A DNA stretch of 64,000 bases from Thermanaerosceptrum fracticalcis. GTDB taxonomy: Bacteria; Bacillota; Peptococcia; DRI-13. The stretch lies in the NCBI RefSeq assembly GCF_000746025.2, contig NZ_CP045798.1, positions 3,269,501 through 3,333,500 of the forward strand, given 5' to 3'. The translations under genes and the position numbers were made by a program. Below are positions 28,265-49,597 of this stretch, piece after piece. How positions within the stretch are numbered: position 1 is the first letter of the stretch; each line of letters begins with the position of its first letter. Under the pieces are notes generated by a model. That model did no database searches, was not told the DNA's origin, and saw only the letters and a program-made list of their open reading frames with translations.

Positions 28265-29437
28265 ATGAAATATAACAAAACAAATAATGATGAACTCTAT
28301 ATAAGACTTAAAAACGAAATTAACAGCATTCAGAGCAGATATATTCTTTTAGAAAGATTATTTTCCACCGCTGAAGGCATCAATTATGATATGCCAGTTT
28401 TTCTCCAAAGCCCGGAAGGACGGGCTGCTTTTAACAATGCAGTCATGAAGCTTGTCTCGGAGCAGTTCATATCACCTGTAGGTAATCCCAATACTGCTCA
28501 AGGGTTACATCTAAAATACAGAATAAATAGAAGTCTAGAAAAGAAAGATAAGGATTTAGTAGCGCAAATTATTAGAAGTATAGCGCCTCCTGCAACGCTG
28601 GATTACTATATTAAAAATCCACAGGATTTTTTGAATGATAGGGTTATCATTGAGATTATTTGTCTTTTCCTTAAACAGAAGAATAAAGACCTAATCACGG
28701 TGAATGAAAGGGCCTATCAGCTTTTCGACGATGAAAAGTTTTTTAAGGGAGAAGGCAAGAACAGAAGCTATGGCGAAACTGTGCTTAAAAGGCTGGGGCT
28801 CAGTTATGCAAGTATAGGGTGTCAAGAGACGGTTGAACCGTTTTTTAGCTTTCAGAACAAGGATTTTTATTCCCTGGCTGCAAGAAATATTTATATCATT
28901 GAAAACAAGGATACCTTCTGGTCTTTTAAACGGAATATCATGGACTCATCCTCGAAAATTAAAGCAGACATGCTTGTTTACGGTGAAGGAAAGAAAATTG
29001 TCAGCAGTTTCCAGTTTATTGAGGAATACGAAGTGGATGCGCAACAAGATCATTTCTTCTACTTCGGTGACCTGGATCCCGAGGGAATTAACATTTACTG
29101 CCAACTTTTGGACGAATATCCACAATACAAAATCTATCCCTTTGCTGAAGGATATAAGGCTGTTTTGGAGATTGGCATGCTAAGAGAGCCTGTAAAAACT
29201 CCGAAAGAGCAGAGGGTCAGGAAAGAAAATATTGAAAAGTTTATCCAGGCCTTGGAAGAATCCCCGGAATTAAAGAAACTTGAGTCAAGCGTGTCATCCG
29301 GGGTCTTCGATCTATCTTGGATCGTAATGCTGAAAAAACATCTCGAAGGAGGCTTCTATATCCCTCAGGAAGCGCTTTCAGCTACCAAAATGAAAGAAAG
29401 GTTTGGAACGAACAGAAATGATGGATCCCAGACGTAA
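28265..29437 (+). CDS. jetD: Wadjet JetD: TOPRIM-containing nuclease subunit
   Basis: A 390-residue protein matching JetD (DUF3322 N-terminal, DUF2220 C-terminal). The TOPRIM-like core includes IIENKDTFWSF near residue 214 and YFGDLDPEGINIY near 268, with catalytic acidic residues. JetD docks on the SMC-like JetABC complex and cuts plasmid DNA once loop extrusion stalls on a small circle. Here it is the first gene of the operon, and its end overlaps the beginning of jetA. The start is ATG 28265 after a weak GGGGTTAAG site. Confidence 0.93.
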   Translation: MKYNKTNNDELYIRLKNEINSIQSRYILLERLFSTAEGINYDMPVFLQSPEGRAAFNNAVMKLVSEQFISPVGNPNTAQGLHLKYRINRSLEKKDKDLVAQIIRSIAPPATLDYYIKNPQDFLNDRVIIEIICLFLKQKNKDLITVNERAYQLFDDEKFFKGEGKNRSYGETVLKRLGLSYASIGCQETVEPFFSFQNKDFYSLAARNIYIIENKDTFWSFKRNIMDSSSKIKADMLVYGEGKKIVSSFQFIEEYEVDAQQDHFFYFGDLDPEGINIYCQLLDEYPQYKIYPFAEGYKAVLEIGMLREPVKTPKEQRVRKENIEKFIQALEESPELKKLESSVSSGVFDLSWIVMLKKHLEGGFYIPQEALSATKMKERFGTNRNDGSQT

Positions 29438-31067
29438 TATTCTTGTACATGATGAAGACGACATCCTGGCCCGTGAAATCATCCGGGAAAACATCGGGGG
29501 AAAAGACCCGGAGCTTTCCCTTGTTGACGATTTTCTGGAAGAGCTGGAATTGAGGCTGGAACAAGTCAAAGTGTATTATCCCATCATGGAACTTTTGAGG
29601 AAACGGAAGACGGAAGAGGAATTCTCCGGGCTAGTTCCTGAACTGTGCTTTTTAACCCTTTCCTATTTGATATATGAAGGGAAGCTTAAACATAAAGGAA
29701 TTACCTTTCAGGATTTGCAGGCTTTTCTGGCCAAAGCTTTGCAACAAATCATGACCAGGAACCTGGAGTCGGAGAAGACAAGGAAACTGACGGTGGAAAT
29801 CCTGGATGGGTTGCAAAACGGGGGCCGGAATTTCATTTTAAATACCTATAGCTTCAAAAGCGGAAACTTCAGGGAAAAGTATGTCAAATTCTTGGAAATT
29901 AAGCAGTCCGAGGAGGGCGTGCTCCAATACTATATCACGGAACAGGGTGTTGACTTTTATCTTAAGACCAAGGAGTTCCCCGAGGAAACCCAAATTACCA
30001 TCAACCTGCTTCTCTTTCAAAAACAGATGGAAAAAGGCGCCTTCGGCTTCGCCTATGAAACGGTGAGAAGGCTGAACATGGAGGTTCAGAAAAAGAAAGA
30101 CCGGAAATACTCTCTGCTCGAAGCTCTGATTTATGGCCGCTTGGATTTGGGAGAAGCTTACAACAGCTATCATCATAGTATCGTGATGCAGTTTCAAGAA
30201 GAAGCCGAGTTGTTTACTACGGCGGTGAAAAACGTCAGCAGTGCCTATAGCGAGTATGTGGAGAGAATCAATAACGGTGAAGCCACGGACAAAGAAATCC
30301 GGACTTTTACCTTAATAAAAATAATCGAGAAAGAAATCAGCAGGGCCCAGACCCTGCATACTCAACTCTTGAAGGAAGCCGTGGGTTTTACCAAGGAGTA
30401 CGACCAGGCCTTGGCGGTCAGAAGAAAAGCCATATTTACCGAAAGGTTCAACTTTCAGGGTGAACTGGAAAAGCTGATGAACCAAAATGAGAAACCGGAA
30501 GCCCTGAAGTTCTTGTTTGAGCCTTTGCTGAATCCTTATGTCCGAAAAAGTTTTAACCCCTTGAGGGTCCTTGAGCCTCAGCGGGTGACAAAGAGTCGGC
30601 AGGAGGACGAAGAAAGCCCGGAAAGCGATCTTCAGGCCGGGAGGGAGACAATCGATCATCTCACCGGCAGACGGGTCAGAAAGAACTTTCTGTTCTATGC
30701 GACCAGACTCTTGAAGGCGCTGGATACGTCCAAACGACAGATCGGTCTGCAAGATTTCTGTAAGAGTCTGATCGACAGGTATTCGGAAGACATCGTCTAT
30801 AACGGGGATTTCTTAAGCTTCCTCCTGGAAATGAACCGGGACAAGAGCATAGGGGAACACTCCAGAATCATCCGCTTTGGTGACGGGAAGATCCAATTGG
30901 ATGAAGAACTGAAAACCATGGAAGAGGTTTTTATCCAAGCAGCGCTTGCTGCCCATATGGAAGGGAAAATCAACCAGGTCACGGTGCAAAGCTTTCCCGA
31001 AGAGGAAGTCGAACTTTTGCCGGGATTGAAAATAACCAATATGCTGTTTAGAGGAGAACGAAACTGA
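29418..31067 (+). CDS. jetA: Wadjet JetA: kleisin-like subunit
   Basis: A protein of about 549 residues, the kleisin/MukF-like component that bridges the SMC heads. It is largely helical with charged coiled segments (residues 230-330) and a winged-helix-like C-terminal region. I chose ATG 29418; an upstream TTG at 29403 is possible, and neither has a strong ribosome-binding site, which fits translational coupling with jetD. The stop overlaps the ATG of jetB (ATGA). Assignment is by length, order and the flanking jetB and jetC. Confidence 0.9.
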   Translation: MMDPRRNILVHDEDDILAREIIRENIGGKDPELSLVDDFLEELELRLEQVKVYYPIMELLRKRKTEEEFSGLVPELCFLTLSYLIYEGKLKHKGITFQDLQAFLAKALQQIMTRNLESEKTRKLTVEILDGLQNGGRNFILNTYSFKSGNFREKYVKFLEIKQSEEGVLQYYITEQGVDFYLKTKEFPEETQITINLLLFQKQMEKGAFGFAYETVRRLNMEVQKKKDRKYSLLEALIYGRLDLGEAYNSYHHSIVMQFQEEAELFTTAVKNVSSAYSEYVERINNGEATDKEIRTFTLIKIIEKEISRAQTLHTQLLKEAVGFTKEYDQALAVRRKAIFTERFNFQGELEKLMNQNEKPEALKFLFEPLLNPYVRKSFNPLRVLEPQRVTKSRQEDEESPESDLQAGRETIDHLTGRRVRKNFLFYATRLLKALDTSKRQIGLQDFCKSLIDRYSEDIVYNGDFLSFLLEMNRDKSIGEHSRIIRFGDGKIQLDEELKTMEEVFIQAALAAHMEGKINQVTVQSFPEEEVELLPGLKITNMLFRGERN

Positions 31068-31789
31068 TGATGCCAGGAACACTAGAAGTGTTGGATGAAG
31101 CGCTGGAAATATTAAAAGCCCTTTTGCAGGGTGAAGAAGTAAGCAAAAACAAGAATGCGCTTTTATATGAAAAATACCGTTATCGTACCGATGTGGAGGA
31201 AATGCTTTATCATCTTGCCGGCAAACTGGAACTCAGGGTTTATTCGGGAAATGGGAGGTTGTTTATCTGTCCGGAGGCCGGCAGCCGGCTTTTCGGTTGG
31301 ACAAACGAAGAACTGCGGGACAAGATCAGTTATATCTCCACGAACAGCGAATTATTTACCGGATATTTCATCATCATGACGCTGGTTACCCTGTTTTACC
31401 GGGAAGCTTATCCGGATACGCCGGTAGCCTACATCAAACTGAACGACTTGGTGGAAAGCGTTTCTAAGCGTTTGGAACCCCTTTTAAAATTGGAGGATTT
31501 GGAAGCGGTCAGCCAGGAAAACCAGTTTGACTTTACGGAAATCTGCCGGATCTGGCAAAGACTGCCCGATGCCAGGGAAGGGGTTTCCGGAGGCAAGAAC
31601 GACAAGGTTGCTTTCGTGGAAAACATCTGCAAATTCTTAAACAGCGAAAAACTGATTGTGTTGGATATGAACCAGAGAATCATTTATCCGACGGAACGGT
31701 TTAAGACGATTATCTGGAACTATTATGAGGACAGGGACAACAGGAAAGACCTGCTGACCTTTGTCCAAAGCTTGGAGGTCAATGGCTGA
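31067..31789 (+). CDS. jetB: Wadjet JetB: KITE/MukE-like subunit
   Basis: A 240-residue protein of the DUF4194 type, the MukE-like winged-helix partner of JetA. Two tandem winged-helix units are suggested by YRTDVEEMLYHLAGKLELRV near residue 37 and by the C-terminal VAFVENICKFLNSEKLIVLD segment. It overlaps jetA and jetC by one base each in ATGA-type junctions, so all subunits are made together. Confidence 0.92.
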   Translation: MMPGTLEVLDEALEILKALLQGEEVSKNKNALLYEKYRYRTDVEEMLYHLAGKLELRVYSGNGRLFICPEAGSRLFGWTNEELRDKISYISTNSELFTGYFIIMTLVTLFYREAYPDTPVAYIKLNDLVESVSKRLEPLLKLEDLEAVSQENQFDFTEICRIWQRLPDAREGVSGGKNDKVAFVENICKFLNSEKLIVLDMNQRIIYPTERFKTIIWNYYEDRDNRKDLLTFVQSLEVNG

Positions 31790-34700
31790 TGCCCCATATC
31801 AAAAGTATAAGGCTTGTCAATGTCCACTTTAATAACGCCACCCAGTTCTATGATGATTTCAGCATGGAGCTGGGAGGAAGGAATACAACCTATGACCTGG
31901 AAAACGGAGGCGGCAAATCCCTTTTGTTGCTGATGGTCCTGCAGACGGTCTTGCCCAAATCCTATCTCAGAAGGGAAAAACCCCTAAGCCTGTTGTTCCA
32001 GGGCGGGAAGGACAGGACCTCCCATGTGGCTGTGGAATGGATTCTGGAAGAGGGAAGCGGTTACAAATATTTGCTGACCGGTTTTTCGGCCAGGAAAAGA
32101 AGGGGCACTGCTGAACCGGCAGGAACAAATGGTTCCGAAGAAGAGGAAAACCTTCAGGCAGTGGATATTGAGCACCTGAATTGGTGTGTATTTTATAACG
32201 ACAATCGGATCACAGGGATCAAGTCCGTACCTTTGTTTGCGGAAGAGGCCGGGAAAAAAAGTTATGCCGGATTTGAAGATATCCGGAAGTATATCCAGCT
32301 AATAAGGCAAAAAGGTTTACCAGCGGAAGTTTTTGATAAAATTGACAAATACCAAAGCTATATTTCTGTACATCACCTCCTCTCTGCCGAATGGAATATC
32401 ATCAAAGGAATCAACAGCGGTGAAAATAATATCGAGTCTTATTTCAGACAGAATGCCACCTCCAGGAAACTGATCGAAAACCAGTTTGTGAAAATTGTGG
32501 AGGACGTCGAGGCTTTAAACAAGGGCGAGAAAAATAACGATGACAGCTTTCTGCTGGCAGATACCTTGATTGAGATCAGAAACAGGCTGAATGAATACCT
32601 GCGGCTTAAAGGTCACATGACCGAATTTGAGAAGATTAAGGAATACTATGAGGAATTCGGCAAGAGAAATGAGGAGTTCCTGAAGGCCTACCAGGAGTAC
32701 GAAGCGTGTAAAATGCTGGCCGCCGCTATCCACAAACTGATTAAAAACAAACTGAAAACCCTGGAAGAGAAAAAGACAGAAACCAAAGCTAAATTAGACT
32801 ACAATACGGACGGCAGCATCGAGGGGCAACAGTTGAAAAGACTCCTGGAGGCCGGTTTGGTGAACCATGAGAAAGAAAGGCTGTTTGCTGTTTTGCAGCA
32901 CTTGGAGGCGGAAAGAGACCAATTGGCTGCAAGACAAAGTGAACTGGAAAAGCGGCTCAACCGCCTTCTGACACTGGAGGGTTATGGAGAATACCGGAAA
33001 GTAAAGGCCAAAGTGAGAGAGATCCGCCAACGTCTCCAAACCTTGGAAACGGATGAAGACAGTTTGAAGGCTGATTACAGGAAAGCGGGAGGTAAGCTTC
33101 GATTCCTGACGGACAAGCTCTTTCAGGAGCTTGAAGGAGAGCAAAAGAAAGCTAAAACGACCAAGGATGAACTTGAAAAGGAAAACGACAAAGCCCAGCA
33201 GGAACGGATAGAAAACGAGAAAATAGCCTCCGAACTGGGAGTAAAGATTAAGGATCTTATTCAGCAAGAGACCCATTTACAGGATAAGCTGAAAGGGCTG
33301 AACGATTTCTTCCTTAAACACGGAGAAATGGACGCCGTCCTTGCGCCCGAGCAGTTTTTGAGTCGCCTGGAAGAGGAACGAAGCCGGTATCTGTCGGAAC
33401 ATGATTCGATTATCGAAAGAATAAAATCCATAGATTACGAGTTGCAGAATCTGGGTCTTGCAGTTGTAAAAACAGAGGGCGAAATTAATAGTAAGCAGGA
33501 AACCAAAAAAACGCTGGAAAGCTGGCTGGAAGACTGTCAACTTGAACTTTCAGGACTGGAAAAAAAGGCTGCCGGCTTTGGCAAAAGCACGGTTGAGGAG
33601 TATAAGGAAGGATTGCAGCTGCTGATTCACAAGGAAAGCCTGAGCAAGCTGGAGAAGGAGATCGAAGCCGGAAGAATGCGGCAAAAGAAGCAGCTTTCCG
33701 AGGACAGGGGTTACTATGTGCCCAATGAGGAAATCCTCTCTCTGGCCGGTCAATTGAGTTCCAAATGCGAATTTGTTCAAACGGGAATAGATTGGATTGC
33801 CCAAGCCGAACCTGAAGAGAAGGAAAATATTCTGCGCCAGATGCCCTATCTGCCTTTTTCAGTTATTATCGATAGGGGATCCTTTGACAAGCTCAAAAAC
33901 GGCAGACTGAAACCGGATTTTTCCTCGGACTATCCTGTTCCGGTGGTTAATCTGGAGACCGTACGCTTGATGAATGACAGCAACAGGGAAGACATCTATT
34001 ATTTTTGCGGCTTTACAGGTTTGTTATTGGACAGCGGTCGGTATAATCAGTATATCCAAAGTATGGAAGCGGCGCTTAAAAAGCTGGATAAGGAAATCAT
34101 TACAACGGACACAAGGATCAATGAATTGAACCGAGATCTGTCCGGGGTTGATGTTTTTTACGGCAAATACCCGCAGGCTGAGATTGAAAACAAGAAGAAA
34201 ATGGTTAAAACCATTAAAGATGATATTACAATCTTTCAAGAACGCCTGCACGAGTTGAATGAAAAGAAAAACAACTTCCTCAAGGAAAGAAAAGTGTTAA
34301 ACGGAAGACTGGAGGAACTTGCCAAACTGACGGCGGAATGCCAGGAAAAAATAGAAAAACTTGTAGACAGCAGGGAAACGGGAAATAACCTGGCAGGGAT
34401 CAGAGTACAGTTGGGCCTAAAACAAAAAGAGCTTGAAGCTGTTCAGGAGAAAATCGCTAAGATCAAAGCCGATATCGCCAACTTAAAACAGCAGTATGAT
34501 TCGGTAGTCGAGCGGCTGGACGGGTTACGGCTTGAAGTTCATGATGTAAAGAAAGATAAGGAGCAATTATTCAGTTTTACAGAAGTAGAAAATACCTTAG
34601 CCATTACTCAAGTGCGCGCCGAATATAAGGCCTTGCAGGAAGCAATGAGCGGGCGGAATGCCGAGGAAAGCGAACTGAGAAGCAATCTGGAAGACAATGA

Positions 34701-36177
34701 AACCAGGCTTGATGCGCTTAAGGACAGAATTCTGAGGGATTACGGAGAGGACCTGGAAGAGGTTGAAAAAGGTGAAGAAAAGGGCCTTCAGATCATTATT
34801 CCTACCCAAAGTATGATCAAAGAGGTCAAACAGAATAAAGATGCAAACAGTAAAAAATTAAAAGCTGCCAATGAAAGGGTTACAGAGATTAGTCTGGCTA
34901 TCCAAAAAACGGAAGGGAAGCTGGAAGAAATCCTAAAAGATTCCGGAGAAGATTTGGAGGCGGATTTACCCCGTTATGACAGTGAAAGCCGCTATCAGCA
35001 GGAGATTGAACAGGCCGAACAGCTGATCAAAAGCTATGCGGAAGAAATTAATAGAGCCAATGAGGAACTGGAAAGAATCAAAGAAGAATATAGCAGGCTC
35101 AATAATCAGAAAGAGGACTATGAGGCCTTCCTGGAAAGGGAAGAAGTGACCGATGACGGCACAGTAGCGCCTGAGACGAAAGAATACAGGCAGTTTGAAA
35201 AAGAATACCGCCGTTTGCAGGATATCATCCGGCTGCAGAGTGAGAAATGGGATGACAGGATGAAAACCATCCAGGCAGAGAATGTTCAGTTTGTCATACG
35301 CGAGCCTCTCGAAGAACTGGGCAAAATCAGCAAGCCGGTCAGCACTGCCCAATGCTTGGCCAGAAAAGAGAATTTCATCGAATACATTGCCAATATTGAA
35401 GAACAAATGCAGAAAATCATCCGTGATATTCGGCAATTGGAAAGCTACCAGGAAGATTTTACCCGCCGGTGTATCCAGAGAGCCGAACTGGTTCTGGGGC
35501 ATTTGAGAAAGCTGGAATCTCTTTCCCGGATCGAAGTTTACGGCAGGCGGACCAACATGATTGAACTTAAGCTCCAGGAATTTGAGGAAAAAGACAAGCA
35601 ACTGCGGATGAAGGCGCATATAGACGGGATTGTCAGGGAGATCGGGGAGGAAGGTGATGTCGACCGCAAGCGCGTTGCAGCCAAGCTTTCCACAAAGGAG
35701 CTTCTAGCCCAGATTGTGAACATGGATAAGGCTGCCGTTAGATTATATAAAATTGAAAGTATCCCGGAAAACTCCAGGTTCTACCGCTGGGAAAACGCTA
35801 TCGGTTCTGAGGGACAAAACAATTCTCTCTACTTTATTTTTGCCGCCTGTCTGATTTCATTTATTAGAATGCTTTCTATCACCAATACCTCGGTAAGAAC
35901 AAAGAAGGTCATTATTGCAGATAATCCTTTTGGAGCAACTTCTGCTGTTTATTTATGGGATCCTATGTTCAAAATTATGAAACAGAATGATATTCAATTG
36001 ATTGCTCCTGGCCATAGAATACCGAGGGAAATTACATCAAGGTTCGGAGTTAGCTATCTCTTAAACCAGGATATTCTTCAGGACGGTCGGATGAGAGTGG
36101 TTATCAAAGATGTGCGGGTTGAAGAGGATGAGGAAGTTCTAAGGTATATTGATTCAGAACAACTATCCTTGTTCTGA
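31789..36177 (+). CDS. jetC: Wadjet JetC: SMC/MukB-like motor
   Basis: A 1462-residue SMC-like ATPase. Walker A is LENGGGKSLLLLM near residue 38, and the ABC-type signature region is SEGQNNSLYF near 1341. Walker B is VIIADNPFGATS near 1371. The region between, about residues 270-1230, is almost wholly heptad-rich coiled coil, interrupted near 640-730 by a globular hinge-like part. It should extrude DNA loops and present small plasmids to JetD. GGAGGT lies 9 bases before ATG 31789. Confidence 0.95.
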   Translation: MPHIKSIRLVNVHFNNATQFYDDFSMELGGRNTTYDLENGGGKSLLLLMVLQTVLPKSYLRREKPLSLLFQGGKDRTSHVAVEWILEEGSGYKYLLTGFSARKRRGTAEPAGTNGSEEEENLQAVDIEHLNWCVFYNDNRITGIKSVPLFAEEAGKKSYAGFEDIRKYIQLIRQKGLPAEVFDKIDKYQSYISVHHLLSAEWNIIKGINSGENNIESYFRQNATSRKLIENQFVKIVEDVEALNKGEKNNDDSFLLADTLIEIRNRLNEYLRLKGHMTEFEKIKEYYEEFGKRNEEFLKAYQEYEACKMLAAAIHKLIKNKLKTLEEKKTETKAKLDYNTDGSIEGQQLKRLLEAGLVNHEKERLFAVLQHLEAERDQLAARQSELEKRLNRLLTLEGYGEYRKVKAKVREIRQRLQTLETDEDSLKADYRKAGGKLRFLTDKLFQELEGEQKKAKTTKDELEKENDKAQQERIENEKIASELGVKIKDLIQQETHLQDKLKGLNDFFLKHGEMDAVLAPEQFLSRLEEERSRYLSEHDSIIERIKSIDYELQNLGLAVVKTEGEINSKQETKKTLESWLEDCQLELSGLEKKAAGFGKSTVEEYKEGLQLLIHKESLSKLEKEIEAGRMRQKKQLSEDRGYYVPNEEILSLAGQLSSKCEFVQTGIDWIAQAEPEEKENILRQMPYLPFSVIIDRGSFDKLKNGRLKPDFSSDYPVPVVNLETVRLMNDSNREDIYYFCGFTGLLLDSGRYNQYIQSMEAALKKLDKEIITTDTRINELNRDLSGVDVFYGKYPQAEIENKKKMVKTIKDDITIFQERLHELNEKKNNFLKERKVLNGRLEELAKLTAECQEKIEKLVDSRETGNNLAGIRVQLGLKQKELEAVQEKIAKIKADIANLKQQYDSVVERLDGLRLEVHDVKKDKEQLFSFTEVENTLAITQVRAEYKALQEAMSGRNAEESELRSNLEDNETRLDALKDRILRDYGEDLEEVEKGEEKGLQIIIPTQSMIKEVKQNKDANSKKLKAANERVTEISLAIQKTEGKLEEILKDSGEDLEADLPRYDSESRYQQEIEQAEQLIKSYAEEINRANEELERIKEEYSRLNNQKEDYEAFLEREEVTDDGTVAPETKEYRQFEKEYRRLQDIIRLQSEKWDDRMKTIQAENVQFVIREPLEELGKISKPVSTAQCLARKENFIEYIANIEEQMQKIIRDIRQLESYQEDFTRRCIQRAELVLGHLRKLESLSRIEVYGRRTNMIELKLQEFEEKDKQLRMKAHIDGIVREIGEEGDVDRKRVAAKLSTKELLAQIVNMDKAAVRLYKIESIPENSRFYRWENAIGSEGQNNSLYFIFAACLISFIRMLSITNTSVRTKKVIIADNPFGATSAVYLWDPMFKIMKQNDIQLIAPGHRIPREITSRFGVSYLLNQDILQDGRMRVVIKDVRVEEDEEVLRYIDSEQLSLF

Positions 36178-36246: not shown

Positions 36247-36269
36247 GATGATAATAAGAGGTGAATTTT

Positions 36270-36557
36270 ATGCCACATATTAGACCGATTTCGGATTTGC
36301 GTAATAACTTTTCAGAAATTTCGAAGATTGTGCATGAAACGTCAGAACCAGTTTTCTTGACCAAAAATGGTTATGGCGATATGGTTGTTATGAGCATCGA
36401 AGCCTATGAACGCAAGCTGTTTGAAAGTGAAATTTACTTTAAATTGAAAGAGGCAGAACTAGAAGCTAAATCTACGGATAAGCGCTTTACCCATGAAGAA
36501 GTGTTTTCGGATTTAAGATTAAGGCTTGTAGATAAGGCAGATGGGGATAATGCATAA
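36270..36557 (+). CDS. Phd/YefM-family antitoxin
   Basis: A 95-residue antitoxin. The N-terminal DNA-binding fold is typical (RPISDLRNNFSEISKIVHET, then PVFLTKNGYGDMVVMS), and the C-terminal helix would wrap the toxin. I start at ATG 36270, because the GTG at 36261 lies inside the AGAGGTG ribosome-binding site. It overlaps the toxin gene. It probably binds the inverted repeat at 36218-36246. Confidence 0.92.
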   Translation: MPHIRPISDLRNNFSEISKIVHETSEPVFLTKNGYGDMVVMSIEAYERKLFESEIYFKLKEAELEAKSTDKRFTHEEVFSDLRLRLVDKADGDNA

Positions 36558-36855
36558 ATTGAGATACCTGCCTTTGGCACAAAAGGACTTAAGAGATATT
36601 ACAAGTTATATCGCTGACACCCTTAAAGCGCCAAAGGCTGCAATGGATCTGGTGGATGCACTTGACCATTCCATATCCCGTCTTGCACAGTTCCCTTATT
36701 CCTACAGAGTTTATCAGCCAATAGAACCACTTGAAGCTGAATATAGGATATTGCCTGTAAAGAACTACTTGGTATTTTACGTAGCGAGTGAGCATGATGT
36801 GGAAATACACAGAATAATTTATGCAAAGATGGATATTACCAAGATTATCCGATAG
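36541..36855 (+). CDS. RelE/ParE-family toxin
   Basis: A 104-residue toxin of the RelE/ParE superfamily (LPLAQKDLRDITSYIADTL, then YRILPVKNYLVFYVA and HRIIYAKMD). The two ATGs at 36541 and 36550 are both plausible and overlap the antitoxin gene by 17 or 8 bases. RelE-type members cut mRNA on the ribosome and ParE-type members poison gyrase; the sequence does not settle which, although the YefM-like partner favours mRNA cleavage. Confidence 0.9.
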   Translation: MGIMHKLRYLPLAQKDLRDITSYIADTLKAPKAAMDLVDALDHSISRLAQFPYSYRVYQPIEPLEAEYRILPVKNYLVFYVASEHDVEIHRIIYAKMDITKIIR

Positions 36856-36930: not shown

Positions 36931-37361
36931 GTTCTGATAAAACGTGCCGAAACCCGCATGACGTAAGGATTTCAGAGATTTTGAAGAGCGGGTTTTGAAA
37001 GGAAAAAATGATGATAAAACGCTGATAAAAACTAGTTATGTCGTCCAATATTTAGAATATAATATTTTTCAGAAGTAAGCATTGAGGGAATGGAGAGGCA
37101 GGTAAAGTTGAATATAAAGGCCAAAATACATGCGGATATTTACGGTGAGACAGGGAGATAGGATAACCGATGTGATGGAGGAGATTATGAACGTATTCGG
37201 CTTTTAATCAGCCAAAGTGTAAGCGGGAAGATAGCTTTTCAAGGATTCGAAGGATTGGAAAAACGCGTCGACGAAAAATATCAAGAAAAAGAAAGAATCT
37301 CGTTGAAAAAAATAGTATAATATTACCATAAGACTGAAATACGGTCATAACCACAACACGG
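36931..37361. other. Intergenic stretch with remnants, before the riboswitch
   Basis: An 8-base perfect stem (AAACCCGC at 36950-36957 with GCGGGTTT at 36988-36995) follows copy C. The remainder holds short interrupted frames that I cannot assign. TATAAT at 37316-37321 may be the −10 box of the riboswitch transcript; no good −35 box is visible. Confidence 0.45.
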
Positions 37362-37475
37362 TGTACATAAATAAATATATCAAAGGCAAACCTGTCGAAA
37401 GCCAGGGGCGCAAAGCCAAGGGCCTAAGGAGTAGAATAATAGCCTCTATGCGATTAATGCACAGGGGCTTTTTGT
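37362..37475 (+). ncRNA. Class I cyclic di-GMP riboswitch (GEMM-I) with terminator
   Basis: Conserved GEMM-I elements appear in order: GGCAAACC at 37385-37392, a GAAA tetraloop at 37397-37400, GCGCAAAGCC at 37408-37417, and the tetraloop receptor half CCTAAG at 37423-37428. A hairpin follows: AGCCTCT at 37441-37447 with AGGGGCT at 37463-37469, then a T-run. The 5' arm of that terminator lies in the 3' part of the aptamer, so ligand binding should compete with termination, making this probably an ON switch. The exact 5' boundary is approximate. Confidence 0.85.
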
Positions 37476-37499
37476 GTATCCAGATGTGACTGGCGGCGG

Positions 37500-37781
37500 A
37501 TGTGGCGGGACATAGAAGTGGGGGAGATAACAAATGAGAGCAGGATCATTATTGTTGATATCGGACAAAAAAAGATAGGCTTTCTGGTGGATGAGGTATC
37601 ACAGGTAGCATCTATTTCCGAAAGAGATATAGAAGCTCCCCCGGAGATTGCTGCAGGCTGTGACCGCAAATTTATTATTGCCGGTATCGGAAAAGCGGAT
37701 AAAGGCATGGTAATACTTTTGGCACCATATGCTGTGCTTTCAGAGGACGAAAAAGATAAGCTGAAAGAAATGAGTGCGTAA
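37500..37781 (+). pseudogene. CheW-domain fragment, N-terminus missing
   Basis: The 93 codons correspond to the C-terminal part of a CheW-like adaptor: RIIIVDIGQKKIGFLVDEVS near the start, then a short C-terminal helix. The N-terminal half of the CheW beta-barrel, including the usual G-x-x-x-P-V-IDL strand, is absent, and only the riboswitch lies upstream. No ribosome-binding site precedes ATG 37500. It probably results from a deletion that fused the riboswitch to the gene tail. It may be untranslated. Confidence 0.7.
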
Positions 37782-37828
37782 AATCATTAGCTTTAAAGAG
37801 AATATTTAACTGCAGGGAGGAAAGTGAA

Positions 37829-39565
37829 ATGAAAAGCGAAAATCATAGTAAAGGCGAAAAGAACAGTAATATCCTGAAAAACGTCAAAATTACTACTTTG
37901 ATTTTTGTTTTGATGATTTTTACTGTTTTTGCTGTCGGAGGAATTTCTTTTACTGCCCTGAATAACATGAAAGTATTAAGCAGCGATATGAACAGCCTGT
38001 ATAAGGATAGAATGCTTGTATCCCTTGACCTGAAACGATTAGAAACAGAGTTCTATATCAGGCGGCTTAATATGACGCAAATGCTTTATGCCGGACAGTA
38101 CAATGAAGAAGCTGCCCGGGCAGTGGCAGACAAACAGGAAAGTTTGAATAAAAAAATAGAAGAATATAAGGGTTTTGCTTTAAATGAGGACGAGCGAAGG
38201 CTGCTGCAAAATATAGAAAGCGGCTATAAATCCTATATAAAAGATGCAGGACAGCTGTTAGAAGCCTTAAAAACCGGCAATGCCGTATCAGAGGCCCAAA
38301 TCAATCAATTGGGCGCATATGCGGCTGACATCCAGAAAAACATTGATGAATTGGTGGCCTTGAATGCCGAAACAGCTAAAGGAGTAGTTAATAAGGCAAA
38401 CAGCGGTTACGAAAGTGCTAAGAAAACCTTTATCTGGTTATTTGTGGTCCTTACAGCAGTATTTATTGTTTACGGACTCATCCTCTCCAGGCTCATCAGA
38501 GGTTCCATGGCGCAGATCAATGATGTCCTTGCCAAATTGGCGGAATATGATTTTACTGTGATACTGGAAGAAGGCGGCAAGAGCGAATTTGCCCGGATGA
38601 ACAGCTCCTTAGCTATAGTTGTTGATAATCTGAAAAGAGCCTTAAAGGAAGTAAGGGAAAATTCCGAGAATGTCACCGGGCATTCCCAAAGCTTGGCGGC
38701 TGTTTCTGAAGAGATGACCTCTGCCACCCAGGAACTGGCTACTACCATGCAGCAGGTAGCCCAGGGGGCAACTTCTCAGGCCCAGGACCTTCAAGAGATT
38801 GTTGCTTCCTTGTCGGAGTTGACGCAGAATATCGAAAATGTCTACAAAGAACTGCAAAAGGTGAAGGATGAGACGGATACCACAGCCGAAAGGGCAAACA
38901 AAGGCAAGGGGGAAATGGACAAGCTCATCAAATCCATCAATGAAATCAAAAACTCCTTCGAGGTGGTTGTAAGCAAGGTGACAAACCTGACGGGCTCCGT
39001 CAAGCAAATCAGCGGGATAACGGAGATCATTACCGGAATAGCCGACCAGACGAACCTTCTCGCCCTGAACGCAGCCATTGAAGCGGCCAGAGCGGGTGAA
39101 CACGGCAGAGGCTTTGCTGTGGTTGCGGATGAAGTGAGAAAGCTGGCGGAAGAATCGCGAAAATCAGCCAGCGAAATTACCAACTTGGTGGCATCCATCA
39201 ATAAAGATACCGATGAGGTCATCAAAACCTCGGAAGATGTGGAGGGCTTCATCAAAAGCCAGGCCCAGTCCGTGGGGCAGACGGTGCAATCCTTTGGCGA
39301 CATCACCCTTTCCGTTGAAAATATTGCCCCGCTCATGAAGAAAACCTACAGCGCCATGGATGAAATCGTCAAATCCAAGGATCAGGTTATGACCAGGGTG
39401 GAACAGGTCAGTGCCGTCACGGAAGAAAATTCTGCAGCCACAGAAGAAGTTGCGGCTTCTTCCGAGGAGTTGTCAGCTTCTTCACAGGAAGTGGCTTCTA
39501 CAGCTCAAAACCTGGCTTCCATTGCTGAAGGCTTAATGAATACTGTAAACAGGTTCAAGGTGTGA
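37829..39565 (+). CDS. Methyl-accepting chemotaxis protein
   Basis: A 578-residue transmembrane chemoreceptor. Transmembrane segments lie at about residues 21-43 and 197-218; between them is a helical extracytoplasmic sensor of the four-helix-bundle type. A HAMP domain follows, then a long coiled coil with the conserved signalling tip ([20 protein letters not shown] near residue 407). GGGAGG precedes ATG 37829. It lies downstream of the c-di-GMP riboswitch and the cheW fragment, so its expression may depend on c-di-GMP. The ligand cannot be told. Confidence 0.95.
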
Positions 39566-39635: not shown

Positions 39636-41156
39636 GTGCAAAGCAAAGACGATAAGATTACGGATATAACTGCATATGAGATAATAGAATATTTTTCTCT
39701 GCCTTTTTATGTTATAGAAGGGGAAAGGATTATCCTTTGCAATCAGAAAGCCTTAAAAGTCTTCGGCTATGAGAAAAAAGAGGAACTGCTGGGCTTGACG
39801 CCATACTCTTTGTCGCCCGCAAATCAGCCTGATGGGTCAAGCTCGGTCGTCAAAGGCAGGGAAATGATCAATAAGGCAAAAGAATCGGGTTACTACAGTT
39901 TTCGTTGGGTGCATCAGAGGAAGGGCGGAAGAAAATTTTTGGCAGAAGTAGAATTGTTTGCATAAAAAGGCTTAATCTTTGCCACTGTAAAGGATATAGA
40001 ACACGTAGAAAAGCTTAAAAACAAGACGGCAAAAATATTTGAAGAGATGAAAAATCTTGCCATTAGGGATTATTTAACAGGCTTATACAATAAGAAATAT
40101 TTTGTGGAGCAACTGGACAGGCTTATCCAAGCTTCATACAGGATAAAAAGCAGGTTTGCCCAGCTTTTTATAGACTTTGACAATTTTAAAGAAATAAATG
40201 ATACATTGGGTCATCTGACAGGTGACAGAGTTATCGAAGAGGCTGCGAGACGGCTAAAAGAAGCAGTCCCTGAAAACTGTTTGCTTGCCTGGTACGGTGG
40301 TGACGAATTTGCCATAATCGTTTCTTCTACTTGCTCAAAAGATGAACTGTACACCATGACGCAGCGATTACTACAGAGCTTAAAGACTGCTTGTGTCATC
40401 GATAATAAAGAGGAATTAAGCCTTTATTTGCAGCCTATTGTTAATATTATTATTGAAAACAGGCTGTCAACTGCAGAAGCGCTTGTAAGATGGGAAAATG
40501 AAGTTTTTGGTCTTGTACCGCCGGATAAGTTTATTCCCTTAGCAGAAGAAACGGGCTTGATCCACGAGATCGGTACATACGTTCTGAAAGAGGTGTGCCG
40601 TTTTATTCAAGGTTTCCGAAAAAAAGAATTAAATCCCATTCCCATTGCCATTAATATTTCGTTAAAACAGCTGGAAAACAGAAACTTTGCCCGAGAGGTT
40701 GAAAATATTATTGCTTCTTACGGCATAGAAGGTAAAAACTTAGAATTTGAAATTACTGAGAGCGTTTCGACGGGCAATATGGAGGTAATCGCTGAAAACC
40801 TGCGAAAAATAAAAGGACTGGGGATAAAAATAGCCATGGACGATTTCGGTACGGGTTATTCCTCCTTGGCTATGCTTTTAAACCTGGAGGTAGATAAAAT
40901 AAAAATCGATAAAATCTTTATAAACAATATAGAGAAAAGCAGGGATGAGAAAATAATCAGAACAGTAATATCAATGGCTAGAGAATTAGGTTTAACCGTT
41001 ATTGTAGAAGGGGTTGAGACAGAGGAACAGGTAAACTTCCTAAAGAATATAAATTGTGAATACGGCCAGGGATACTTTTGGGCAAAGCCTATACCCATTG
41101 CTGATTTTGAGAAATATGTGCAAAAAAGTATATTTTGCGATAGGGTCGAGGAATAA
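39636..41156 (+). pseudogene. PAS-GGDEF-EAL c-di-GMP protein, interrupted by an in-frame stop and internally deleted
   Basis: One frame runs from GTG 39636 to 41156, broken only by TAA at 39963-39965. The PAS domain (FYVIEGERIILCNQKALKVF) is before the stop. After it come a linker, a GGDEF domain with intact YGGDEF (40293-40310), and an EAL domain. EAL keeps its key parts: AEALVRW, EITES, DDFGTGYSSL and VEGVETEEQ. The GGDEF C-terminal part and EAL N-terminus are missing: only about 58 residues separate the GGDEF and EAL motifs. A product from ATG 40047 could still be a phosphodiesterase. Full-length function is lost unless the stop is read through. Confidence 0.82.
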
Positions 41157-41195
41157 GTAATATGTATTGAGTTGTCTGCTTTGGAGGTGTTATTG

Positions 41196-42850
41196 TTGGG
41201 AGACGCAGCAGTAAAAAGAATTCTGATTGTCGACGACAACAAATTTGATGCCGCAGTAACTTCCGATATACTGAAAAAACACGGTTATGACACAAAGATT
41301 GTCCGAAGCGGCGAAGAAGCCCTGGAAAAAATGAATAGTTACCAAGAACTGTATTATGACCTTATCCTGATGGACATAGAGTTGGGAAAAGGAATGGATG
41401 GGATGGAAGCGGCGGCTGAAATCCAGCAGTGCTGCGGCATTCCTGTAGTTTTTCTTTTCGCTCATACTGAGGGGAATTTATTGAAAAAATCCGTTCTGTT
41501 GCAAAATATGGTTTTGTGGCGAAAAACGCCAGTGAACATATTCTAATAACTGTAGTCGATATGGCACTGAAACTTCATGAAGAAAGCATAAGTACCGGTC
41601 TGTACCGGCAGATTGTGCAATATTCCATGAATGAAATTTATATTTTCAATCCTGAAACTTTAGAGTTTATGATGGTAAACCGCGGTGCCAGGGAAAACCT
41701 TGGATACACCATGGCAGAGCTTGCAAACATGACACTCCTAGATATAATCCCGGGAACAGAAATACCAAATTCCAGGAGGGCCATCGAACCCCTGCTAAAA
41801 GGAGAAAAAGAGAGGTTTTTCTACAATACAATACACTGCCGCAAGGATGGTTCATTTTATCCGGTCGAAGTAAACCTGCAGCTTTATTCGTACAGGGGAA
41901 AAAAAGTCTGTATGGCTCTTGTTGCTGATTTGACAGAGCGGAGGAAACTAGAAGAAGACTTGCGGGAAAGAGAAGCTCTTTTGAGTGCGGTTACCCAATC
42001 AGCAGGAGAAGCCATCATTATGTTAAATGAAAAAGGAATGGTAGCATTTTGGAACCCGGCAGCGGAAAAGCTTTTCGGTTATTTGCAGGAAGAAATTCTG
42101 GGAAAAGACTTGCATAGGCTGGTGTTGTTGGATGAACAAAGCTATAGAGCTTATAAAAATAGTTTTATTCATTTCCAATCAACCGGGGAAGGCAATAATA
42201 TTGGAAAGATTGTAGAACTTAAAGCAAAAAATAAGGCAGGGGAAATCCTGGACGTGGAACTTACCCTTACAGCCGTAAAACGAAAAGAAGGTTTGTATAC
42301 GATTGGAGTTGTGCGCGATATAGGTAAACGAAAAAAGGTAGAGGAACAGGTATATCTGTTGACAATAACTGACCCTCTGACGAAAATCTATAACCGACGC
42401 TATTTTACGCATAAACTGGAAGAAGAAATAGAGCGCTCCAAACGGGCAGAAAGTAAGTTTTCCCTGATAATGCTGGACATAGACTGCTTTAAGAGCATCA
42501 ATGACCGTTTTGGCCACAACGCCGGTGATTTAGTTCTTAAAAGCATAGCAGAATTGATTAAGAACAGGATCCGCAAAATAGATACCCTGGCCCGCTGGGG
42601 CGGGGAGGAATTTGTCATACTACTGCCGGACACAACGGTAAATAATGCGGCTCGTTTAGCGGAAGAACTGCGGGAAAGTCTAAGCCAAATGGATATGCCG
42701 GGCGTAAGACGTGTAACAGCCAGCTTCGGAGTTGTCGGTTACTGTCCGGGGGACACGGTTGATATATTGGTGAATAAGGTAGACAACATGATGTATGAAG
42801 CAAAAGCTGCCGGCAGGAATTGTGTGCGATATACAGAAGAATGTGAATAG
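41196..42850 (+). pseudogene. Response regulator-PAS-PAS-GGDEF diguanylate cyclase with a frameshift
   Basis: The receiver domain (RILIVDDNKFDAAVT, phospho-acceptor in LILMDIEL) runs from TTG 41196, which has GGAGGTG 6 bases before it. Near 41484-41489 there is a run of six A, after which the natural continuation is in another frame (ORF from 41516). Two PAS domains follow (EIYIFNPETLEFMMVNRGA; EAIIMLNEKGMVAFWNPAA), then an active-type GGEEF domain (RWGGEEFVILLP). One extra base in the A-run would restore the whole protein. The second half could be made separately. It opposes the EAL protein upstream in c-di-GMP turnover. Confidence 0.85.
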
Positions 42851-44393: not shown

Positions 44394-45977
44394 GTGAACC
44401 CATCAATAGATATTTTTATTAATTCGTTTGCCATGCGCGGTATTACCTCCCGAGAGCAATTATTAAACGAAATGTTACGCGTCAAACTTACAGCGCGAGC
44501 CGTGAAATCACGAAAAAAATCTCTACAGGATGGAGAGCAGCTTTTCGAATTGATGAAGCATTCTACAGAAAGTACAATCCTGGGATACTTTCCAGGCGAC
44601 AGGGATTTCTTTTCTTCTATTTATAAGGTTGCACAAGAAATTGATCTTATTGAGTATACACTTAAACTATACCAAAACGACCGTTTCGGACAAATATTCT
44701 CTCCGGCTTATTTGACGGAATATGTCTGTAGCCTGATAGATGATGCAAAAGCCCAGTCGATACTTATTGCCGAAGCAGAAAAAAGCCTGTCAGGTCTTAA
44801 AGGCTTGGTGGAGAAGCATCAGTCAAGCAATATAACCTTTACCACATCCAATGTACTTATGTTTATGCTGCTTAAGCTTGGATTTGAAGAATATGAGAAC
44901 GTCAGTATTCTTAATCAGTCGATATACCAGGAGCTTCTTATTGACGCACGTTTTGACTTTATCTATTCACTGCCTGATTTTGGCGGCAAGATTGAAGCTG
45001 TTAACCATAAATTTATGTCCTCAAGACCAGATGTTGTGGCAACGCAGAATTTACTTCGACACTTATCTGACAGAGGCACGCTGGTGACTGTGCTCCCTGC
45101 TAAGATTGCATTTGCAAGTGGTTCTGAAGCAAAGCTGCGTGAGCATATCATGACCCACTATCAATTGGAGGGTATTTACAGTCTTCCCGAAGGCACTTTC
45201 AAGCCGTATACTGCCATAAAAACCTATATGCTTAAAATAGGTGCTGTAAAAAAGGAAAATGTGAGCGTGGGATATTTAGGTTATGATAATGGTCTTTATG
45301 TCGATAAAGTGAAGGTAGTGTCCAACGAAGATTTTGCCGCTCATGAGGATTGGCGAATTGAACTTATACTCGCGGATGATGACGAGAATATCAGAAAGTA
45401 TAAGACATCAACTCTTGAAAGAGTTAAACTTCATGAAGTTGCAGAGGTTTTCAGGGGAAAATCAATCCTCAAAAAAGATGTTAAGCCTGGGAAAATCATG
45501 GTACTGAATATTTCAAACATTACTGATACCGGCATTGATTATTCCAATATGGACAGTATTGATGAAGAAGAACGAAAAATCAAAAGATATGAGCTGATAG
45601 ACGGAGATATAGTCTTATCCTGCAGGGGATCGGCAATTAAAACGGGTGTATACCGTAAACAAAAAAGTATCGTTATCGCCTCGGCCAATGTTATAGTTAT
45701 CAGACCCAATAATAGGGTCTTAAGCGATTACCTTAAGATATTCTTTGAGAGTCCTGTCGGAATAGCACTTATAAAAAGCTTCCAACGAGGAACGACCATT
45801 GTAAATATAAATCACACTGACATTATGGAAATGGAAATACCACTCTTAAGTATAGAAGAGCAGAAAGAGCTGGCAGCTCACTATGAAGCTGAAAGCACCC
45901 TGTATCGAGAAACTATCAGCAAGGCTGAGGAACGCTTTGCTGCTGAAAAAGAAAAAATCTATGAGAGATTGCTCTAA
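44394..45977 (+). CDS. Inactive methyltransferase-specificity (M-S) fusion protein of the type I R-M locus
   Basis: A 527-residue protein. Residues ~110-300 look like the C-terminal half of an HsdM/N6 methyltransferase (RFDFIYSLPDFGG, then GTLVTVLPAKIAFASGSEAK, then YQLEGIYSLPEGTF). The catalytic NPPF is replaced by SLPDF and no AdoMet-binding motif I is present. Residues ~335-527 form a single HsdS target recognition unit (KLHEVAEVFRGKSILKKDV, ending in SIEEQKELAAHYEAES). It starts with GTG 44394, after AAGGAGG. It precedes hsdM and may serve as an alternative specificity subunit or modulator. Catalysis is not expected. Confidence 0.8.
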   Translation: MNPSIDIFINSFAMRGITSREQLLNEMLRVKLTARAVKSRKKSLQDGEQLFELMKHSTESTILGYFPGDRDFFSSIYKVAQEIDLIEYTLKLYQNDRFGQIFSPAYLTEYVCSLIDDAKAQSILIAEAEKSLSGLKGLVEKHQSSNITFTTSNVLMFMLLKLGFEEYENVSILNQSIYQELLIDARFDFIYSLPDFGGKIEAVNHKFMSSRPDVVATQNLLRHLSDRGTLVTVLPAKIAFASGSEAKLREHIMTHYQLEGIYSLPEGTFKPYTAIKTYMLKIGAVKKENVSVGYLGYDNGLYVDKVKVVSNEDFAAHEDWRIELILADDDENIRKYKTSTLERVKLHEVAEVFRGKSILKKDVKPGKIMVLNISNITDTGIDYSNMDSIDEEERKIKRYELIDGDIVLSCRGSAIKTGVYRKQKSIVIASANVIVIRPNNRVLSDYLKIFFESPVGIALIKSFQRGTTIVNINHTDIMEMEIPLLSIEEQKELAAHYEAESTLYRETISKAEERFAAEKEKIYERLL

Positions 45978-45994
45978 GATGAGGAGGATAAAAA

Positions 45995-47497
45995 ATGGCA
46001 ACGGTAAATTTGGGGTTTGAAAATAATCTATGGGAAATGGCAGACAAGCTGCGCGGCAACATTGAGGCTTCGGAATACAAGCATGTAGTACTGGGACTTA
46101 TTTTCCTTAAATACATTTCCGATGCTTTTGAGGAGAGATATAACGAGCTGGTTGAAGAGGGCGAAGGATTTGAGGAAGACATAGATGCTTATACCGAAGA
46201 GAATGTTTTTTTCGTACCGAAGGAAGCCCGTTGGGAGTACATAAAATCCAATGCCAAGCAGCCTACTATCGGACAGATTATCGATGAAGCAATGATAGCT
46301 ATTGAGAAGGAAAACGCCTCCCTTAAAGGGGTGTTGCCTAAAAACTATGCACGCCCGGAAATAGATAAAACAAAACTTGGCGAGCTTATCGACCTGTTTT
46401 CCTTTAAGGTTGGTGATAAGGAGGCAAGAGCAAAAGATGTGCTCGGCAGGGTGTATGAATACTTCCTTGGGAAGTTCGGTTCGTCAGAAGGCGAATTTTA
46501 CACCCCGCCATCCATTGTAAAACTTCTTGTTGAAATGATTGAGCCATATAAAGGCAGGGTTTATGACCCGTGTTGCGGGTCCGGCGGCATGTTTGTGCAG
46601 AGCCAAAGATTCGTTGAAGAACACAGCGGCAGAAAGGACGACATCCATATCTTTGGACAGGAATACACTGCTACCACCTGGCGGCTTTGCAAAATGAACC
46701 TTGCTATCAGGGGTATTGACGGAAACCTTGGCGAGCGGGATGCGGATACCTTTTCCAATGATCTCCACAAGATGCTGAAGGCGGACTATATACTTGCCAA
46801 TCCACCCTTTAACATCAAGGACTGGGGAGCTAACAGGCTTGCCGATGATGTCCGCTGGAAGTATGGTATGCCCCCTGCGGGAAACGCCAACTATGCCTGG
46901 ATACAGCATATTATTTCCAAGCTCTCGCCAAACGGGGTAGCGGGCTTTGTCATGGCCAACGGCGCTATGTCTACCAATACAACCAGTGAAGCCGAGATAA
47001 GGAAGAATATAATCGAAGACAGACTTGTGGACTGCATCATCACCCTGCCGTCCAACCTTTTCTATAATGTAACCATTCCCGCCTGCCTGTGGTTCTTGAC
47101 AAAGAATAAGAAATCCGCAGGCCGGGACCGCAGCAATGAAATCCTCTTTATTGATGCCCGTAAGATGGGTACGATGGTTGACCGCAAGCACAGGGAACTT
47201 GACTATGAGACAGAGATAAAATATATCGCCGATACCTACCACAAATGGAAAAAGGGCGAAGGATACGAGGATATCAAAGGATTCTGCAAGTCTGCCACCT
47301 TGGATGAAGTGCGCTCCCATGAATATATCCTCACCCCCGGCAGGTATGTGGGCATTGAAGATAAGGTCGATGACGGGGAGCCTTTTGATGAAAAAATGAC
47401 AAGACTTACCGAGAAGCTTGCCGAGATGTTTGCAAAGCGCAGCCATTTGGAGGAGGAAATCCGTAAAAGACTGGGGGCGATCGGGTATGAGTTTTGA
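45995..47497 (+). CDS. hsdM: Type I restriction-modification methyltransferase HsdM
   Basis: A 500-residue adenine N6 methyltransferase. Residues 1-130 are the helical N-terminal domain. [15 protein letters not shown] is near residue 168, motif [13 protein letters not shown] near 190 and motif [13 protein letters not shown] near 266. It would work as M2S for host methylation and with HsdR for restriction. GAGGAG precedes ATG 45995. It overlaps rhuM by 11 bases. All catalytic motifs are intact, in contrast with the upstream fusion. Confidence 0.97.
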
Positions 47498-48515
47498 AAA
47501 TAATTCGGAAATATTAATTTACCAAACTGAAGATGGGAAAACCAAAATCGAGGTAAAAATGGAAAATGAGACAGTGTGGCTTTCCTTGAATCAGATGGCA
47601 GAGTTATTTCAACGTGATAAGTCTGTTATTTCACGCCATATCAAAAATGTATTTAGCGAAGGAGAACTTAAAGAAAAAGAAGTTGTTGCATATTTTGCAA
47701 CAACTGCAGCGGACGGAAAAACCTATAATGTAGAGTACTTTAACTTGGATGTCATAATTTCTGTCGGCTACCGGGTCAAATCCCACAGGGGCACCCAGTT
47801 CAGAATCTGGGCAACCCAAAGACTCAAGGAATACATAATCAAAGGCTTTACCATGAATGATGACCTGCTGAAAAAAGCAGGCGGCGGCAATTATTTTGAG
47901 GAATTATTGGAGCGCATACGGGATATCCGCTCAAGTGAAAAAGTCTTTTATCGCAAAATTTTAGACATTTATGCCACCAGTATTGACTATACACCGGACG
48001 CGGCCATTTCCCAGCAGTTTTTTCAAACGGTCCAGAACAAAATGCACTGGGCGGCCCATGGTCACACCGCGGCGGAAATAGTGTATCAGAGAGCCGACAG
48101 TACAAAACCTTTTATGGGCATGACCAACTTTACAGGTTCCAAGCCTACCAGGTCAGAATCCCAGATTGCCAAAAACTATCTTACAGAGGATGAACTGGCT
48201 GTACTAAACCGCATCGTCAATGCTTATATCGAATTTGCCGAGCTTCAGGCAATGCGCAGAAAACCAATGTACATGGCCGACTGGGTAAGTAAATTAGACG
48301 AGTTCCTTAAGATGAGCGACAGTGAGATTCTTACGCACGCAGGCAAAATCAGCCACCAACAGGCTGCTCAAAAGGCGATAGAAGAGTATGAAAAATATAG
48401 GGAACGAACCAAAAATGAACTTTCCGAGGTGGAAAAGCACTTTCTTAAGAGCATTGACAAGACTGGAAAAATGCTAAAAGGGAAAAAGGATAGCGCCGGA
48501 GGTGATGTGGTGTGA
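47487..48515 (+). CDS. rhuM: RhuM-family protein
   Basis: A 342-residue protein of the RhuM family, found in Salmonella pathogenicity island 3 and often between hsdM and hsdS. The N-terminal part ([20 protein letters not shown], then SRHIKNVF) is HTH-like. [20 protein letters not shown] is the family hallmark, and the C-terminal half resembles a Fic-like helical domain. The start ATG 47487 lies within hsdM, overlapping by 11 bases. Its role in the R-M locus is unknown. Confidence 0.93.
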
Positions 48516-49597
48516 GTGTTGGGGAGTGGAGAGAGGTGAAGCTTGGGGATGAGATCGAACTCCTATATGGTAAGGGTCTAGTAAAAACAAAAAGGAATAA
48601 TAATGGAAACGTTCCTGTGTATGGATCTAATGGGCTGATTGGATTTCACGATGAAGCACTAATAAATGGGCCTGGTGTAATTATTGGTCGAAAAGGAACT
48701 GTGGGGTCTGTTAATTATTCTTCAGTACCATTTTTCCCAATAGATACTACTTATTATTTAAATCCAAGGAATAATGATTTAAAGTTTATGTATTACTTTT
48801 TGCAAACATTAGGATTGTCTAACATGAATACGCATAGTGCTGTTCCAGGTTTAAACCGCGATAATGTTTATAATTTAATTATAAAAATACCTGAATTAAA
48901 TGAGCAAAAGGCAATCGCCGCTACACTGTCTGCCCTTGACGACATGATCGAGCTTAACAACCAAATCAACAAAACCCTTGAAGAAATCGCGCAGGCAATC
49001 TTCAAATCCTGGTTTGTGGATTTTGAGCCGTTTAAGGACGGGGAGTTTGAGGAAAGCGAACTGGGGCTGATACCGAAGGGGTGGAGAGTTGTTAAGAATA
49101 AAGAGGTATTTGAATTATCTTACGGAAAAGCTTTAAAAGCAGAAAACCGCCGATATGGTCATTATCCTGTAGTAGGTTCCAATGGTATTGTTGGATATCA
49201 CGATGAATATTTAGTTAAAGGACCCGGTATCGTTGTTGGTAGAAAAGGTAACCCAGGTACAGTGAATTATATTTTTGATAACTTTTATCCAATTGATACT
49301 ACTTTTTATATTGATACTAAAATTAGTAAAATCTTTCTTTACTTTGCTCTTAAAAATCAGAATTTGATTCAGCTTAGTGCAGATTCTGCAGTACCCGGCT
49401 TAAACAGAAATATTGCTTATATGAATTCTTTATTACTCCCAAGGGAAGATGTGTTAAATAAGTTTGACAATGTTATTCAACCTATCTTTGATTTAGTGCT
49501 TAATAATCAAAACGAGATTACACATTTGCAGAACATTCGCGACACCCTCCTCCCAAAATTGATGAGCGGAGAGATAAGAGTACCCATTGGCAATTGA
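48512..49597 (+). CDS. hsdS: Type I specificity subunit HsdS with two very similar target recognition domains
   Basis: A 361-residue HsdS. It has TRD1 (residues 1-135), a central conserved helix (AIAATLSALDDMIELNNQIN), TRD2 (195-330) and a distal conserved helix (LQNIRDTLLPKLMSGE). The two TRDs share GSNGxxGxHDExLxxGPGxx, then VGRKG or IGRKG, then NY, FPIDTT or YPIDTT, and SAVPGLNR. They probably bind the same half-site, giving a palindromic target. GTG 48512 overlaps rhuM by 4 bases, with GGAGGTG 7 bases upstream. Its final codons are formed by the AT-rich repeat at 49591, so the natural C-terminus may have been replaced. Confidence 0.95.
   Translation: MSVGEWREVKLGDEIELLYGKGLVKTKRNNNGNVPVYGSNGLIGFHDEALINGPGVIIGRKGTVGSVNYSSVPFFPIDTTYYLNPRNNDLKFMYYFLQTLGLSNMNTHSAVPGLNRDNVYNLIIKIPELNEQKAIAATLSALDDMIELNNQINKTLEEIAQAIFKSWFVDFEPFKDGEFEESELGLIPKGWRVVKNKEVFELSYGKALKAENRRYGHYPVVGSNGIVGYHDEYLVKGPGIVVGRKGNPGTVNYIFDNFYPIDTTFYIDTKISKIFLYFALKNQNLIQLSADSAVPGLNRNIAYMNSLLLPREDVLNKFDNVIQPIFDLVLNNQNEITHLQNIRDTLLPKLMSGEIRVPIGN

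Follow-up and report, generated by a model that had tools for sequence, protein, structure and literature searches.

A probable c-di-GMP-I riboswitch relic in the leader of a decaying chemotaxis and c-di-GMP operon

The leader at 37375-37474, in front of a cheW fragment and a chemoreceptor gene in the window (the whole stretch of 64,000 nucleotides from Thermanaerosceptrum fracticalcis that was analysed), is very likely what remains of a riboswitch in an operon of chemotaxis and c-di-GMP genes that is decaying, with a ligand-blind terminator remaining ahead of the genes (Table 1). With regard to the ancestor and the order of events, we infer that a c-di-GMP-I switch originally preceded cheW and a chemoreceptor gene, and that the 3' end of its aptamer was also able to act as antiterminator against the 5' arm of the terminator. 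A deletion would then have taken the 3' half of the aptamer, leaving the leader a net 18 nt shorter than that of the related locus L122. C92, the antiterminator strand and the 3' strand of P3 would have gone with it, and the terminator, which now follows half an aptamer immediately, would form regardless of c-di-GMP. A second deletion would have cost cheW its N-terminal half, and two downstream genes are broken by an in-frame stop, the loss of a stretch and a shift of frame.

Table 1. Features of the leader and the downstream genes (positions in the window)
Feature	Position	Strand	Basis or remark
c-di-GMP-I aptamer, 5' half	37375..37429	+	Rfam match; score against relatives and shuffles
15 nt between CCTAA and CCTCTATG; 33 nt in L122, including the aptamer 3' half	37428..37442	+	comparison with L122
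Intrinsic terminator	37441..37473	+	stem 37441-37447/37463-37469 and 37449-37451/37459-37461, then U-tract
cheW C-terminal fragment, 93 aa, N-terminal half missing	37500..37781	+	Pfam CheW
Chemoreceptor (4HB_MCP_1, HAMP, MCPsignal), 578 aa, full length	37829..39565	+	domain matches; GGAGG before ATG
PAS-GGDEF-EAL gene, broken	39636..41156	+	in-frame TAA at 39963-39965; GGDEF region short of about 70 residues
Response regulator-PAS-PAS-GGDEF gene	41172..42850	+	frame change inside the receiver domain; two overlapping frames

The c-di-GMP-I ancestry of the leader is supported by a match to Rfam family RF01051 at 37375-37461 of the forward strand (38.0 bits, E 0.00073), which passes the curated cut-off of 35 bits, but ranks last by score among the 45 such matches that 25 genomes of the order contain. 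Across 16 additional genomes, a single match out of 32 was weaker (33 bits, under the cut-off), and three other aptamers of the same genome score 74-84 bits. The 5' half scores 39 against its relatives, and the maximum of 500 shuffles was 16. Its P2 stem forms five of six pairs (with a mismatch at 37395/37402) and carries a GAAA loop at 37397-37400, and the half also contains the CAAAGC junction, followed by the 5' strand of P3. The G at 37386 and an A within this junction are taken here to correspond to G20 and A47 of the Vc2 structure, which together with C92 are the ligand-contacting bases (Vc2 numbers). The initial annotation had described a c-di-GMP riboswitch with a well conserved aptamer, which is true of the family and of an excellent 5' half, but not of the 3' half, which does not rise above shuffled sequence. 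Elsewhere in the same genome, two c-di-GMP-I aptamers are arranged in tandem (L006 3884-3971 and 4120-4204, at C1:3426883 and C1:3427118), the second of which scores best as the variant family c-di-GMP-I-GGC.

Comparison with complete aptamers demonstrates, at the level of sequence, that the 3' half is missing from the window. The stretch 37429-37500 scored 8 against the 3' halves of the relatives, a value reached by 211 of 500 shuffles; 33 positive controls scored 9-17 with a median of 15, one of them (score 9) failing to exceed the 95% level of the shuffles, 9.5. Three models resulted in three different registers, which end at 37461 (Rfam RF01051), 37451 (RF03167) and 37453 (our own covariance model, built from 33 aptamers with that of the window excluded, which gave the window 42.4 bits). 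The alternative registers obtained with RF03167 and with our own model were rejected, each being different and badly paired. Of ten pairs in the base of P3, five can form in the Rfam register and six in that of our own model, and P3 is not closed at its base. In contrast, at least eight of ten pairs were found in all 33 aptamers of set A2 and at least seven of ten in all 33 other rows of set A3; together, these sets comprise 61 distinct aptamers (A3 contains two duplicate rows and shares three with A2), all with at least seven pairs, out of 76 other RF01051 matches in the order and the 16 further genomes. The position of C92 is occupied by A or U in the window, failing in both registers counted, and by C in 61/61 of the other aptamers, so that of the ligand-contacting trio the presumed equivalents of G20 and A47 are kept and C92 is lost. 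The score above the cut-off and the formation of three of the four apical P3 pairs in the Rfam register speak against a relic. It should be noted that the low score alone is no proof of a lost 3' half, because the weak aptamer L052 (contained in set A1, excluded from A2 and afterwards scored with our own model) shares the low score of the window (42.1 and 42.3 bits) and yet retains GCC and seven of ten P3 pairs. Thus, a riboswitch match above a database cut-off can be a relic, with half of the aptamer gone and the terminator intact, and it would probably be a mistake to list the match in the window as a gene under c-di-GMP control. A literature search, largely outside subscription journals, brought up no publication about a c-di-GMP-I switch with one half deleted.

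The terminator is a G+C-rich hairpin (-13.6 kcal/mol) followed by UUUUU, although it was not listed by a fixed terminator scan that allowed no internal mismatch and loops of 3-8. It was compared with the sequence that follows each of the 61 aptamers (at most 120 bases), and the best match was L122 in genome G051, where an aptamer of 47.5 bits lies upstream of a chemoreceptor gene (score 21; 28 of 35 bases identical, ungapped). The second locus, L119, which is the same place as L033, scored 18, equal to the best of 300 shuffles over all platforms, none of which reached 21. With up to one mismatch allowed, the terminator core CTCTATGCGAYTARTGCA was found in two of 398 genomes, once in each and adjoining an RF01051 match both times, namely in the window and at L122; the exactness of both fits is by design, because the pattern was written from these two sequences, so that its rarity elsewhere is the result, and the reversed pattern, used as a control, also matched two genomes. 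The comparison shows the two terminators to be homologous. Unlike the window, L122 has kept the 3' half of the aptamer including GUUGCAUA, with TTCTATGGCAGCCGGTTGCATACAA between P3 and the terminator, and no cheW lies between its switch and the chemoreceptor gene. Since L122 retains the 3' half ahead of a homologous terminator, the best reading of CCTCTATGC in the window is that it forms the arm of the terminator and that the aptamer strand once ahead of it has been lost, and the comparison with G051 suggests the form of the expression platform before the loss. P2 of L122 is itself weak, with three of six pairs. Behind its complete switch, L122 contains at 1738-1800 what looks by eye like a second copy of a 3' half with a degraded terminator; Rfam reports only the first aptamer in this stretch.

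These results bear on the proposal of the initial annotation that the leader is a working ON switch, in which ligand-bound P3 would hold the 5' arm of the terminator and transcription would reach cheW and the chemoreceptor gene. Such a switch would agree with a match above the cut-off, with a conserved 5' half carrying the presumed equivalents of G20 and A47, and with a register that overlaps the terminator stem at 37443-37449; indeed, the Rfam register does read 37441-37449 both as the 3' part of the aptamer and as the 5' arm of the terminator, as had been claimed, but by homology these bases belong with the terminator of L122. The deduction of ON logic from this overlap was dropped once G051 turned out to carry the terminator core after an aptamer 3' half. 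Bc1, described as a c-di-GMP-I switch that frequently precedes chemoreceptor genes, turns reporters on in Bacillus subtilis, and counterparts of G20, A47 and C92 of Vc2 are predicted in it (PMC11218506). The window resembles such chemoreceptor-associated c-di-GMP-I (GEMM-I) switches, of which Bc1 of the Bacillus cereus group is an example, in the aptamer 5' half with the GAAA loop, the terminator and the downstream chemoreceptor gene, but differs from them in the absence of a 3' half, of C92 and of an antiterminator strand. An ON switch has become very unlikely, and the claim that c-di-GMP turns the genes on is unsupported because the aptamer half that was meant to hold the terminator arm is missing; the failure of P3 and C92 and the in silico folding of the leader (terminator P 0.96-1.0, antiterminator 0.0, no competitor) also stand against it.

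The folding of two of three related loci points in the opposite direction. In the ligand-free fold of L122 the aptamer end GUUGCAUA pairs with UAUGCGAC of the terminator, with P 0.83-0.89 for the antiterminator and 0.03-0.10 for the terminator, and in L070 the antiterminator reaches 0.39-0.79 versus about 0.2 for the terminator. In L033 complementary letters are present (duplex -7.6 kcal/mol), but the terminator wins the equilibrium fold (0.86-1.0 versus 0.0). Plain folding, which omits the ligand, tertiary contacts and kinetics, thus suggests OFF logic for two of the three related chemoreceptor switches (L122 and L070), and the ancestral switch was probably OFF in the presence of the ligand. 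Because the terminator also wins in L033, a plain fold alone is no proof of constant termination. In the window, the sole stretch within two substitutions of GUUGCAUA between 37375 and 37500 is GUAGAAUA. Ligand binding would have been lost together with the 3' half, and the relic probably terminates transcription with or without c-di-GMP. The AGGGGC at 37404-37409 in P2 repeats the 3' arm of the terminator and could form a duplex with its 5' arm (-11.8 kcal/mol), but in the ensemble the two pair with P 0.0; that the half aptamer has turned into another kind of switch, in which this motif competes for the 5' arm and binding to, or delayed folding of, the 5' half alone controls termination, is extremely unlikely. 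In switches of the order at L038, L040, L042 and L055, the terminators contain, as seen by eye, GGCAAC-like stretches with complementarity to GGGTTGCC, the end of the aptamer, suggesting the same kind of antiterminator pairing at these loci.

The truncation of cheW is evident from domain comparison: the reading frame covers only positions 64-137 of the 138 positions of the CheW domain (PF01584), and the N-terminal half is absent, as had been noted in the initial annotation. An alignment of 85 residues with the intact cheW of L094, beginning at residue 65 of the latter, gives 45% identity. Four of the five CheW matches in the genome are near whole (profile positions 1 to 132-136) and none of the five is a lone N-terminal half, so that a deletion is favoured over a rearrangement. 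The deletion of the N-terminal half had also been held to have placed the switch in front of the fragment. The deletion itself is supported, but placement by deletion is not needed, because genome G061 (L094/L101) contains in one row a complete aptamer (78.3 bits) with a terminator, followed by an intact cheW of 158 aa and then a chemoreceptor gene, and thus the gene order of the window requires no special event. The chemoreceptor of G061, in contrast to the gene order, is a different one (26% identity over 210 residues). Among the cheW relatives in other genomes, an aptamer lies within the flanks at one of 14 loci (L094); in G062 an aptamer is found about 2 kb upstream of cheW, with a chemoreceptor gene in between.

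Downstream of the chemoreceptor gene, which is the only gene of the cluster that looks whole, reading frames with GGDEF/EAL and GGDEF domains follow, confirming that the next genes belong to c-di-GMP enzyme families. The sequence shows both of their frames to be broken. With the 554-aa protein of L066 as tblastn query, the pieces of the PAS-GGDEF-EAL gene stop at residue 242 and restart at residue 313, so that residues 243-312 are absent. In the response regulator gene the frame change lies within 41460-41546, near short single-base runs; its GGDEF domain is whole. This one domain speaks for the feedback loop that had been considered, but an incomplete aptamer and the disruption of two downstream genes make the case for such a loop weak. 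An error of assembly or sequencing might also have removed the aptamer half and broken the neighbouring frames, and some of the single-base frame changes could indeed be sequencing errors, given the single-base runs; the genome consists of one contig. Such errors would account less readily for missing stretches than for single-base changes, and losses from the aptamer, from cheW and of 70 residues would be untypical of read errors, which makes an error extremely unlikely as the general explanation.

Another possibility, which would be doubtful but must be taken seriously, is that the relic acts as a constant attenuator or as the end of an upstream transcript, or has no role at all, and that the chemoreceptor gene is transcribed from its own promoter inside the cheW fragment. 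The full-length frame of the chemoreceptor gene and the GGAGG in front of its ATG are consistent with continued expression of this kind; on the other hand, a crude fixed scan of 37000-37900 detected no sigma-70-like promoter, and two neighbouring genes are damaged. This possibility is compatible with the interpretation of the leader as a riboswitch relic and differs from it only in what is still used.

The chemoreceptor was not found in any of the 24 other genomes of the order (E up to 1e-80), ten others among 398 genomes of the phylum have a match (E up to 1e-90), and a search for copies on plasmids (E up to 1e-60) yielded none. An RF01051 match is present at two of the 16 loci of the phylum matches (L026 and L033), within flanks of 1.5 kb or less. 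The relative in G049 is 81% identical and lies at a contig end, and the stretch around that of Cohnella laeviribosi (57%) contains neither an RF01051 nor a cheW match. In G259 (L066) a 588-aa chemoreceptor with 60% identity is followed, in the same order as in the window, by a PAS-GGDEF-EAL gene; unlike in the window, both genes are whole, and the stretch has no RF01051 or cheW match.

Other features were noted on the forward strand of the window. Immediately upstream of the relic, an antitoxin (Phd/YefM) and toxin (ParE) pair is located at 36261-36855, preceded at 29403-36177 by three genes matching the PADLOC models JetA3, JetB3 and JetC3 of the Wadjet defence system. Type I restriction-modification genes (a methyltransferase and two with specificity matches; a PDC-S05 match lies in between) are found at 44394-49597, and a pemK RNA match of 57.3 bits (Rfam) is located at 11394-11471.
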